Of a DNA stretch of 29,712 nucleotides, positions 1,001 through 3,356 are shown piece by piece. The notes beneath the pieces are model-generated. The model was not told the origin of the DNA. It saw nothing but the letters and a program-made list of their open reading frames with translations, and searched no databases. This stretch comes from a virus. The DNA is taken from positions 1 to 29,712 of the IMG/VR virus record IMGVR_UViG_3300022929_000132; one strand, given 5' to 3'. Each line of letters starts with the position of its first letter. The first letter of the stretch is position 1. A program made the position numbers and the translations under genes.

Positions 1001-1604
1001 GTCTTCCAAATAGTTTGTCTTCAACCTTTGTTTTAACTTTACTTTTAATTTTTCTTTTGAACTTATTAAATAGACCACCAAGTAATCCTGAAGGTGAATT
1101 TTCGAATGATGAAGACCATGATCTAAAAGCTACTGAAACTGTAAATGTTTGTATGTCTGATGCTGATGCATCTAATGTTTGTTCTTGAATGTTCTGTGGA
1201 AATGCTTCGTGTAATTCTACTTCATATACAGCCAAATTATCTTGACCCATTTGTCTTATTTTAATTGTACCTGTATAGTCATCTTGATATTGAAAACCAT
1301 ACGCTTCATCATGAATATATTGTTGCCACAATTCGAATGTTTGTTTATCTTCAAAAGTATGATCACACATGAAAGTCATTGTCACAACACCACCACCATA
1401 GTCAACTTTGTTTGGGTGTTTTCTCATAGGACCACCACCATACTCAGACATCTCTGCAAAGACTATTTGTTTACCTGGTATGTTAATATTAGTACATCTA
1501 AGTCCTCTACTTCTGATACCAGCTGGTCCGAATATCTCAACTTCAAATTTATTTTGACGAGTCATTTGATCAACATGAGCTGCCATAAATCTATTGATGT
1601 TCAT
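996..1604 (-). CDS. gp54-like baseplate tail-tube initiator
   Basis: A 202-residue protein of the tail-tube fold. The N-terminal half reads as a gp19/gp54-type tube domain: a residue 19-26 strand (NKFEVEIF), a loop with RCTNINIPGK, then an EYGGGP stretch and a V-x-M-x-F strand followed by FELWQQYI. T4 gp54 joins gp48 on top of the hub and nucleates the inner tube. The basic C-terminal tail (FNKFKRKIKSKVKTKVEDK) is not expected in a simple tube subunit. Its ATG shares one base with the upstream stop (TAATG), implying coupled translation. It is shorter than T4 gp54 (320 aa). The alternative is the major tube protein gp19, less likely in this baseplate context. Confidence 0.6.
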   Translation of the reverse strand: MNINRFMAAHVDQMTRQNKFEVEIFGPAGIRSRGLRCTNINIPGKQIVFAEMSEYGGGPMRKHPNKVDYGGGVVTMTFMCDHTFEDKQTFELWQQYIHDEAYGFQYQDDYTGTIKIRQMGQDNLAVYEVELHEAFPQNIQEQTLDASASDIQTFTVSVAFRSWSSSFENSPSGLLGGLFNKFKRKIKSKVKTKVEDKLFGRL

Positions 1605-2182
1605 TAAAATCTACTCCTACTTTCTTTCCAAACAGTATCTTTACTAACTTTTCTAAATGACTCAGTTGGTAAGAATATAGCAATCTCCCAATCTTGAGGT
1701 TCAATTAATAATAATTTAGATTGAATATGTTCTGATAGATAATGTTTAAAACATGGTTTAAAAAATCTGTATTGTGTTGCTCTCTTTAATATTTGATAAG
1801 TTAATTTAAATTTTGTACTTCTATCATATTTATCGTTATTTGTTATGTCCATTAACGAATCTAAGAACTGTGCTCTGATATTTGGAGCTATATAATGTAA
1901 ATTCATACCATGAAACCCTTTCTTAGCAGGTTGTACAGGTATGACTAGTGGAAATCTATCGTAATAAGGTAGTGTTTGTTTTGTTTTAGGATCATATTGA
2001 AAGTTGTACATACTACCATAAACTTGTCTTGCTCTTGTTGGACCGTCTTTAAGTAAAGCGGCTCGGGAGACATTGACATTACTTACTCGGTCTTGAAACC
2101 AAGCCATAGACTCTTTTGTTCTAGCAGCTATTCCTGCTCTAAAAGCTTCTTGTTCAAGTTTGTCGAATAATCTCCCTGCCAT
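1604..2182 (-). CDS. Conserved T4-like virion protein, possibly DNA end protector gp2
   Basis: A 192-residue soluble protein without signal peptide or membrane segment. Recognisable is the block YDPKTKQTLPYYDRFPLVIP (about residues 63-82), then KKGFHGMNLHYIAP and a C-terminal aromatic, basic half (residues 125-190). I recall this 'LPYYDRFPL...G-NLHY' pattern as conserved across T4-like and other large phages, often labelled DNA end protector (gp2). The nearby gp4 gene fits, since T4 genes 2 and 4 are neighbours. The assignment is tentative, as T4 gp2 is longer (274 aa). The AGGA ribosome-binding site overlaps the stop codon of the upstream outer-membrane-like gene, so the two are coupled. Confidence 0.55.
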   Translation of the reverse strand: MAGRLFDKLEQEAFRAGIAARTKESMAWFQDRVSNVNVSRAALLKDGPTRARQVYGSMYNFQYDPKTKQTLPYYDRFPLVIPVQPAKKGFHGMNLHYIAPNIRAQFLDSLMDITNNDKYDRSTKFKLTYQILKRATQYRFFKPCFKHYLSEHIQSKLLLIEPQDWEIAIFLPTESFRKVSKDTVWKESRSRF

Positions 2183-2190
2183 TTTTTGTC

Positions 2191-2835
2191 CTAGAATTTT
2201 GAAGTAAAATGTAAAGAAACGGCATCACCGAGACTTACATTACTATCTCTAACATTACTCATGACCATTAACCCAAGACTCATTGAGTCAGACAAAGCGT
2301 ATTCTATATTAACACTTTTGTCTTTGACACCATCATAATCTCCATAGTGTAATGTAACATCAGCAAAATCAATGAATGGTAGTTTTAAATCTACCCAATC
2401 ATAGTCTGGTGCTAAATCTTCACCTGATGCATGACCAATATCAATTGGACCATACCCAAGCACTAGATATTTTTCTTCAAAGTTTAAAGACTTTTGATCA
2501 TGGTAACGATATGAAACATATCCTAAATCCATTCTAAAATCTCCCTTTGAAAGACTATAACCACCACGGAGGTCGAATTCGACCTTAGCGTCATTATTAA
2601 AGTCAACTGAACTAGCACATCCTGCTACATAGAAACCTTGTCCTACTGCTTGTTCTAGACATGCGTGTACAGAGGGTTTACCATCTGATTGTGATATTCC
2701 TCTCCACATATAGTCAGAACTTATTCCATAATGTCCAGACAAACCACTAAGAACAGGAGATTTATACTCTCTTGCTTCAGAAGCTCCTAGAAACATAATA
2801 GAAAAAGTTGCTAATAATACTAATATTTTATTCAT
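2191..2835 (-). CDS. Phage-encoded TIGR02001/Gcw_chp-family outer-membrane-like protein
   Basis: A 214-residue protein with a clear signal peptide: Lys3, a hydrophobic core at residues 4-17, and a probable cleavage after the SEA motif at 19-21. The mature part contains SSDYMWRGISQSDGKP (about residues 39-54) and GFYVAGCASSVDF (67-79). These match the N-terminal signature of TIGR02001/Gcw_chp (PF09694), a proteobacterial family of probable outer-membrane beta-barrels of unknown function. Alternating-polarity strands continue to the end, and the chain ends in phenylalanine, as BAM-inserted porins often do. It has its own late promoter and a strong AAGGAG ribosome-binding site. No such gene belongs to the T4 virion set, so it looks like a host-derived accessory gene acting in the infected cell's envelope. 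Family call is fairly firm; role unknown. Confidence 0.75.
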   Translation of the reverse strand: MNKILVLLATFSIMFLGASEAREYKSPVLSGLSGHYGISSDYMWRGISQSDGKPSVHACLEQAVGQGFYVAGCASSVDFNNDAKVEFDLRGGYSLSKGDFRMDLGYVSYRYHDQKSLNFEEKYLVLGYGPIDIGHASGEDLAPDYDWVDLKLPFIDFADVTLHYGDYDGVKDKSVNIEYALSDSMSLGLMVMSNVRDSNVSLGDAVSLHFTSKF

Positions 2836-2853
2836 ACTTTCTCCTTATATATT
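2836..2853 (-). promoter_or_regulatory. Strong ribosome-binding site of the outer-membrane-like gene
   Basis: On the minus strand TATAAGGAGAAAGT precedes the ATG at 2835. AAGGAG at good spacing is the most canonical site among the minus-strand genes here, suggesting high translation of this accessory gene. Confidence 0.6.
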
Positions 2854-2888
2854 AGTTTTCATGATATAAAATCATAATGTTAATAAAG

Positions 2889-2896
2889 TATTTATG
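2889..2896 (-). promoter_or_regulatory. Late promoter upstream of the outer-membrane-like gene
   Basis: CATAAATA on the minus strand, one mismatch to the T4 late consensus, lies in the 65-bp gap between gp4 and the outer-membrane-like gene, 54 bp upstream of that ATG. The expected leader contains a short AT-rich hairpin (ATGAT/ATCAT) and the strong AAGGAG site. Confidence 0.5.
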
Positions 2897-2900
2897 TCAA

Positions 2901-3356
2901 TTAGTATGCGTTTATATCTTTTTCTGTTAGAATTCTCCAATTCCACTTTCTATCTTTACAATACTTCATAGCAGAGTTCCATTTTGCATCATTTACTATG
3001 TAAGTCTGTACTTCTTTGAGATATCTTTTAGAAGTTCTACCTGTTTTAGTCAGTTTTTTATTTGGATCTGGAGGTGAACATTGAGCAAATGGTTTTACTT
3101 CAATGAGTTCTTCTACTATCATACCGTTTTTGTTTTTGTATTTGATATAGAAATCAGGAAAATATCTATGCACACGATTGTCTACCGGTGATACATACGG
3201 TATAATAATTTCTTCTGAACACCATTTTAATATAGAGGGATTACTATCTAGATACACCATGAATCTTCTCTCTAATAAAGAACGATAAATAATGTTAGTA
3301 GGATTACCTTTATACTTATTTGGATTCTTAGGTCTAAACTTTCCTTTATAAGACAT
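2901..3356 (-). CDS. gp4: gp4 head-completion protein, PD-(D/E)XK nuclease fold
   Basis: A 151-residue protein matching the T4 gp4 (gp50/4) head-completion family, which acts after DNA packaging before the tail joins the head. The nuclease-type residues are visible: E29 in SLLERRF, D68 in RYFPDFYI, and E86-V-K88 in ELIEVKP, the PD-(D/E)XK order also seen in TnsA-like nucleases. Length is typical. Its presence beside tail genes parallels T4, where gene 4 precedes gene 53. The ATG has no obvious ribosome-binding site and overlaps a plus-strand late promoter motif. It is transcribed divergently from gp48. Confidence 0.85.
   Translation of the reverse strand: MSYKGKFRPKNPNKYKGNPTNIIYRSLLERRFMVYLDSNPSILKWCSEEIIIPYVSPVDNRVHRYFPDFYIKYKNKNGMIVEELIEVKPFAQCSPPDPNKKLTKTGRTSKRYLKEVQTYIVNDAKWNSAMKYCKDRKWNWRILTEKDINAY

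Follow-up and report, generated by a model that had tools for sequence, protein, structure and literature searches.

Phage genes that place a barrel in the outer membrane of the host include those for the Lc porin of phage PA-2 and for Lom of lambda; both are temperate-phage conversion genes and belong to other families than the gene described here, which sits in a T4-like late gene cluster. Marine T4-like phages with an outer-membrane channel are also described, namely the pelagimyophages and phage Melnitz, which carry CsgG/CsgF (PMC7029224, PMC9004378), a channel that differs from the present one in family, pore type and locus. KdgM and NanC are specific monomeric diffusion channels (PMC4849052), and torF (SO4694) of Shewanella oneidensis is listed as a TMAO reductase system outer membrane porin (PMC5955497). 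The TorF family, which is represented by the TIGR02001 and PF09694 (Gcw_chp) models, and its carriage by cultured phages annotated in GenBank are already known: the copy of Acinetobacter phage AB1I1M-1 is named “TorF family putative porin” and that of Caulobacter jumbo phage CcrBL9 “putative exported protein”. From its family name, we take SO4694 to be a member of TIGR02001/PF09694. In the literature searched, the family is not discussed under the Gcw_chp or PF09694 name, and a late exchange cassette that consists of one gene with its promoter, and for which empty sites exist, appears to be undescribed.

Such a locus is found in the window, which is the whole stretch of viral DNA that was analysed (IMG/VR record IMGVR_UViG_3300022929_000132, 29,712 nucleotides). 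Its features, in the direction of transcription, are the following:

2901..3356, minus strand: gp4-like head closure gene, 5' flank of the cassette (phrog_218, E 4.3e-57)
2889..2896, minus strand: T4-type late-promoter-like CATAAATA, its position after gp4 conserved in filled and empty sites
2860..2880, minus strand: near-palindrome ACATTATG-ATTTT-ATATCATG in the leader, conserved in aligned cassettes
2841..2846, minus strand: ribosome-binding site AAGGAG, -9.3 kcal/mol to the anti-SD
2191..2835, minus strand: TorF/Gcw_chp-family porin gene, 214 aa (PF09694 61.4 bits, TIGR02001 83 bits)
2773..2835, minus strand: probable signal peptide, residues 1-21 (MNKILVLLATFSIMFLGASEA), from the sequence, a conserved Ala21 and a low-confidence helix in the model
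2197..2739, minus strand: predicted 12-stranded beta-barrel, residues 33-213 (AlphaFold2; KdgM/NanC structural matches)
1604..2182, minus strand: gp2-like DNA end protector gene, 3' flank of the cassette (phrog_429, E 2.8e-56)

The gp2-like gene is followed on the minus strand by a gp19-like tail tube gene and a T4_baseplate/baseplate hub gene, and the remainder of the window encodes mostly T4-like baseplate and fibre proteins. Between the porin stop codon and the gp2 ATG there are 8 nt with no late-promoter motif, so the coupling to the next gene that had been predicted holds in the sense of close spacing and not of overlap. The porin gene has a GC content of 35.2% (window, 34.2%) and a third-position GC of 0.19, equal to that of gp2 and gp19, and its composition thus matches that of the phage. 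Bacterial contamination is rejected because the gp4 and gp2 flanks are present in every relative that carries the gene at this locus, and an artefact of frame or strand is rejected because stop codons abound on the plus strand and dN/dS is low. An Rfam search returned nothing, and a tRNA search found none.

The open reading frame is complete, starts with ATG and encodes a protein that was scored against the curated cut-offs of both family models. It passes that of PF09694 (E 1.6e-16, 61.4 bits vs 24) and that of TIGR02001 (E 2.4e-23, 83 bits vs 47.15), which bears out the family originally predicted, and the scores are so far above the cut-offs that a chance match is rejected. Both matches are N-terminal and cover at most residues 1-135; the TIGR02001 alignment covers model positions 1-140 of 244 only, and in the copies of the Ccr and Acinetobacter phages it reaches position 244. 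The C-terminal part of the window protein is divergent in sequence and completes the barrel in the model. At E<=1, PF09694 is the sole Pfam family reported, with no KdgM sequence-family match, and neither the PHROG families nor the solved structures gave any match by sequence to the protein.

The window protein shares with the TorF family the conserved Y-x-x-R-G-x-x-Q, E-x-D and E residues; each of the 23 marine-phage copies retains residues Y42, R45, G46, Q49, E86, D88, Y109, E121, and G165. The terminal Phe noticed in the original prediction, F214, is nearly invariant among the phage copies. The marine-phage copies differ from the rest of the family in being shorter (median 204 aa vs 231-244), in their divergent C-terminal part, and in forming a clade of their own within phage gene clusters. 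The N-terminus consists of MNK and a hydrophobic stretch, Ala21 is conserved in bacterial and phage relatives, and the region is a low-confidence helix in the AlphaFold2 model, which together point to a signal peptide. Cysteines at residues 59 and 73, on neighbouring strands, occur in 6 of the 23 copies, possibly as a disulfide-bearing allele group.

The AlphaFold2 model, built with 24 sequences, has 12 strands between residues 33 and 213 (pLDDT 85.8, pTM 0.75), and a member of a second allele group (L018) is also modelled with 12 strands (pLDDT 83.7), two of its five models being poor. The top match among solved structures is KdgM (Z 17.2, rmsd 2.5, 160 residues), followed by NanC (Z 16.0) and VhGalP (Z 15.2), the three of them ahead of other barrels; Foldseek alone returns several barrels at similar E-values, and the label KdgM-like is based on Z, TM-score and coverage. 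The predicted fold agrees with the beta-barrel proposed originally, and the protein is very probably an outer-membrane barrel. It may work like KdgM, with which it shares the predicted 12-stranded barrel, but it is not filed as a member of the KdgM/NanC group, to which it has 5-9% identity. KdgM and NanC take acidic sugars, whereas the window protein is itself net acidic.

The late-promoter-like CATAAATA lies just past the gp4 stop codon, with its near end 53 bp upstream of the porin ATG. Because TATAAATA-like 8-mers (<=1 mismatch) are not enriched over chance in the AT-rich window, the promoter is called from its conserved position and not from the frequency of the motif: every aligned filled site has it at an identical position, and ATAAATA right behind gp4 is conserved both in filled sites and in the clade's empty ones. 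The porin gene, within the late/virion cluster, thus has a putative late promoter of TATAAATA type at the position given in the original prediction. The ribosome-binding site had been called the strongest of its strand, and its pairing is in fact the best among the 22 starts checked on both strands, the runner-up having -7.7 kcal/mol. Between promoter and ribosome-binding site, the aligned cassette leaders contain the near-palindrome ACATTATG-n-ATATAATG. It has no predicted stable RNA pairing, so an RNA hairpin is unsupported, and it could be a protein site.

Relatives were gathered by the porin protein itself and, free of that bias, by gp4 and gp2, and are counted as distinct loci. The porin gene is present between gp4 and gp2 in all 27 loci with a gp4 at least 84% identical to that of the window. 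Among the 15 loci with a gp4 of 74-84% identity, 3 carry the gene, 1 has other content, and 11 are empty, with a gap of 20-32 bp in which the late promoter is retained. With more distant gp4 proteins the gap is empty in 45 loci and holds other genes in 5. Among named complete phages, the one whose gp2 is most similar, Phage C48C1, has an empty site as well. The absence of the gene from 11 distinct related loci agrees with the prediction of an accessory gene and disfavours an essential virion gene. The simplest history would be an insertion that separated gp2 from its late promoter, which the porin gene now uses.

The same gap has other occupants. A HAD phosphatase, a cytidylyltransferase similar to CMP-KDO synthetase (PF02348) and a protein of unknown kind are encoded there in L062-L064 and L088 (L numbers denote the sequences compared), suggesting a second kind of envelope-related cassette. 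T4-like contigs L134, L137, and L157-L159 have sulfotransferase-like (PF03567) and GT25-like glycosyltransferase (PF01755) genes, and in L050 and L051 the gap of 756 bp contains two small minus-strand ORFs and no porin gene.

At this one fixed locus the gene is swapped between phage backbones as a cassette: copies that are 94-100% identical in DNA occur in backbones whose gp19 is 55-62% identical. The gene is 100% identical (rounded) in L030 and L034, with the leader at 98%, gp4 at 88%, gp2 at 80% and gp19 at 59%; it is 95% identical in L117 and L121 (gp4 81%, gp2 70%, gp19 57%) and 94% in L018 and L026 (gp4 88%, gp2 79%, gp19 55%). When the window is compared with L006, its nearest relative, the neighbouring genes have about 91-96% DNA identity and only the porin gene drops, to about 74%. 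In protein the L006 allele is 92% identical to the alleles of L003 and L004, and for gp26 the identity of L006 to these two is only 41-43%. In eight discordant pairs (L003/L004, L002/L004, L006/L004, L007/L008, L018/L026, L035/L038, L048/L117, and L021/L029) dS is 0.16-0.35 in the porin gene vs about 0.5-2.0 in gp2, and constraint is therefore rejected as the source of the near-identical alleles; in window/L006 and L025/L027 the dS pattern is reversed. In line with identity and dS, the tree of the porin gene disagrees with that of the backbone. In AU tests, the backbone data reject the L035/L036/L038 allele group as a clade (p 4e-66); the tests are non-significant for window plus L006 in the porin gene tree (p 0.11) and for L048 plus L117 in the backbone tree (p 0.087), and these two cases of exchange are drawn from identity profiles and dS, not from a tree test. 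The dN/dS of the porin gene is 0.02-0.25, which indicates purifying selection.

Copies of the family are also found at other loci. In a profile scan of further viral contigs, the gene follows gp46-like SbcC and 2OG-oxygenase-like genes (L191, L192), adjoins nrdA/nrdB (L193-L196) or is near a helicase gene (L181), in each case with no late-promoter motif just upstream, and these DNA-metabolism neighbours make a strictly end-of-infection role unlikely for the family. In Caulobacter phages CcrSC, CcrBL9 and their relatives the copy is located directly before genes for a PnuC-like ribosyl nicotinamide transporter and a ribosylnicotinamide kinase. The tandem trio of CcrSC (L200, 3977-6349) looks like a phage operon for uptake of NAD precursors that includes the outer-membrane step. 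In AB1I1M-1, a T4-like phage of Acinetobacter, the copy precedes a gene for UTP-glucose-1-phosphate uridylyltransferase. The Caulobacter and Acinetobacter phage copies all score above the TIGR02001 cut-off, but they are not beside gp4 and gp2 and have no late-promoter motif just upstream.

A tree of 109 copies groups the 23 from marine phages in one clade (SH-aLRT 99) and places the Caulobacter and Acinetobacter phage copies on other branches, so these were probably acquired separately. The tree is a quick one with long branches, in which the starred branches force at least two changes, provisionally suggesting three acquisitions of the family by phages. Among bacteria, a family match is present in 206 of the 398 genomes that were drawn evenly from the phylum searched; a scan of named genomes gave only two loci. 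The family had been thought to point to a proteobacterial host; this pointer is weak, and no host can be named, since the family is so widespread and the marine-phage clade has no close bacterial relative.

The phylum and class draws supplied 62 bacterial copies, made up of the best scorers and a low-scoring batch, and in 10 of them amtB/glnK lie within 700 bp on the same strand; in two selected small-genome orders this applies to 15 of 20 copies. The copies so linked mostly share their half of the tree with the marine phages. However, of the 20 phylum-draw copies with the highest scores against the phage profile, none is adjacent to amtB, which leaves the link to ammonium only suggestive.

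The original prediction had left the role open-ended, listing receptor masking, altered permeability, lysis and mimicry; permeability, in the form of a channel, is the one favoured by the KdgM/NanC-like fold, the invariant residues, the short loops, and the amtB/glnK and pnuC neighbours. With family membership, the predicted KdgM/NanC-like barrel, the late-promoter-like site, purifying selection and locus swapping all obtained by computation, we give a probability of roughly 0.45 to the reading that the locus is a mobile, probably late-expressed cassette for a small outer-membrane diffusion channel, nutrient benefit included. The protein would be exported by Sec and folded by the host BAM machinery, and its pore would pass small solutes across the outer membrane during virion production. 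As cargo, small nitrogen compounds or similar nutrients are the best guess, given that amtB/glnK are beside some bacterial relatives and the nicotinamide-riboside transporter and kinase genes are behind the Caulobacter phage copy; taken with the TMAO listing of torF, these contexts suggest small, mostly nitrogen-bearing solutes. The gene would act as an auxiliary transport gene, whose alleles would suit different hosts or waters. Against a channel, late expression is an odd timing for nutrient uptake, and frequent swapping of alleles also fits a role in the surface or in host recognition.

The main rival, which we consider rather unlikely, is that a late barrel remodels the cell surface, displacing or masking a host receptor protein and so blocking superinfection or the sticking of progeny to debris, a role that has been proposed for other envelope proteins of phages. 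The swapping of cassettes at a fixed locus speaks for it, and in other phages the gp4-gp2 gap holds candidate surface-modifying genes, namely those for cytidylyltransferase and HAD phosphatase, sulfotransferase and GT25 glycosyltransferase. Comparable proposals are published for marine T4-like phages, as LPS-modifying genes of pelagimyophages are thought to prevent coinfection (PMC7029224) and an S-layer protein of Melnitz is proposed to act against it (PMC9004378). The predicted outer loops, whose side was set by analogy with the orientation of KdgM, argue against a mask: they have 15, 8, 7, 6, 2, and 2 residues, the longest of them, loop 1 (40-54), is also the most conserved outer loop, and variability among copies is not limited to them. 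Short outer loops of which the longest is the most conserved fit a channel better than a variable mask. Superinfection exclusion by T4 is early, whereas the promoter here looks late, and the family-conserved residues are kept although a simple decoy does not need them.

A late pore could also weaken or permeabilise the outer membrane and help the progeny to escape, and the late-promoter-like site and the strong ribosome-binding site would suit such an aid to lysis. This is improbable, since KdgM-like pores are narrow, no lysis genes were found adjacent to the porin gene, and relatives in other phages are near DNA-metabolism genes with no late-promoter motif just upstream. That a bacterial gene of little effect was caught at an insertion hotspot is very improbable; the gap does receive varied genes, but the low dN/dS, the presence of the gene in 27 of 27 close relatives and the strong ribosome-binding site speak against a neutral passenger. 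Least credible is a component of the virion, present in the particle as a barrel or surface protein, since, although the gene lies inside the virion cluster and probably shares its late operon with gp2 and gp19, its product has a probable signal peptide and a predicted outer-membrane barrel, is homologous to bacterial envelope proteins and is missing at the site in the 11 related loci.

If the diffusion channel is retained, a broader proposal can be made, tentatively: marine T4-like phages would share a pool of outer-membrane nutrient-channel alleles, exchanged as promoter-leader-gene cassettes in one fixed late locus, which would tune host outer-membrane permeability to host or nutrient regime and form a phage-encoded outer-membrane arm of nitrogen or cofactor uptake. 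The known functions of phage auxiliary genes are mostly inner-membrane or cytoplasmic. If the proposal is true, the first permeability barrier would also be under phage management, by a selected and widely traded outer-membrane channel, and phages would offer a way into the function of a bacterial family that is common but little characterised in functional terms. Nutrient and superinfection roles may be separated by a natural experiment, provided by alleles that are nearly identical in divergent backbones and by empty sites in which the promoter is intact.
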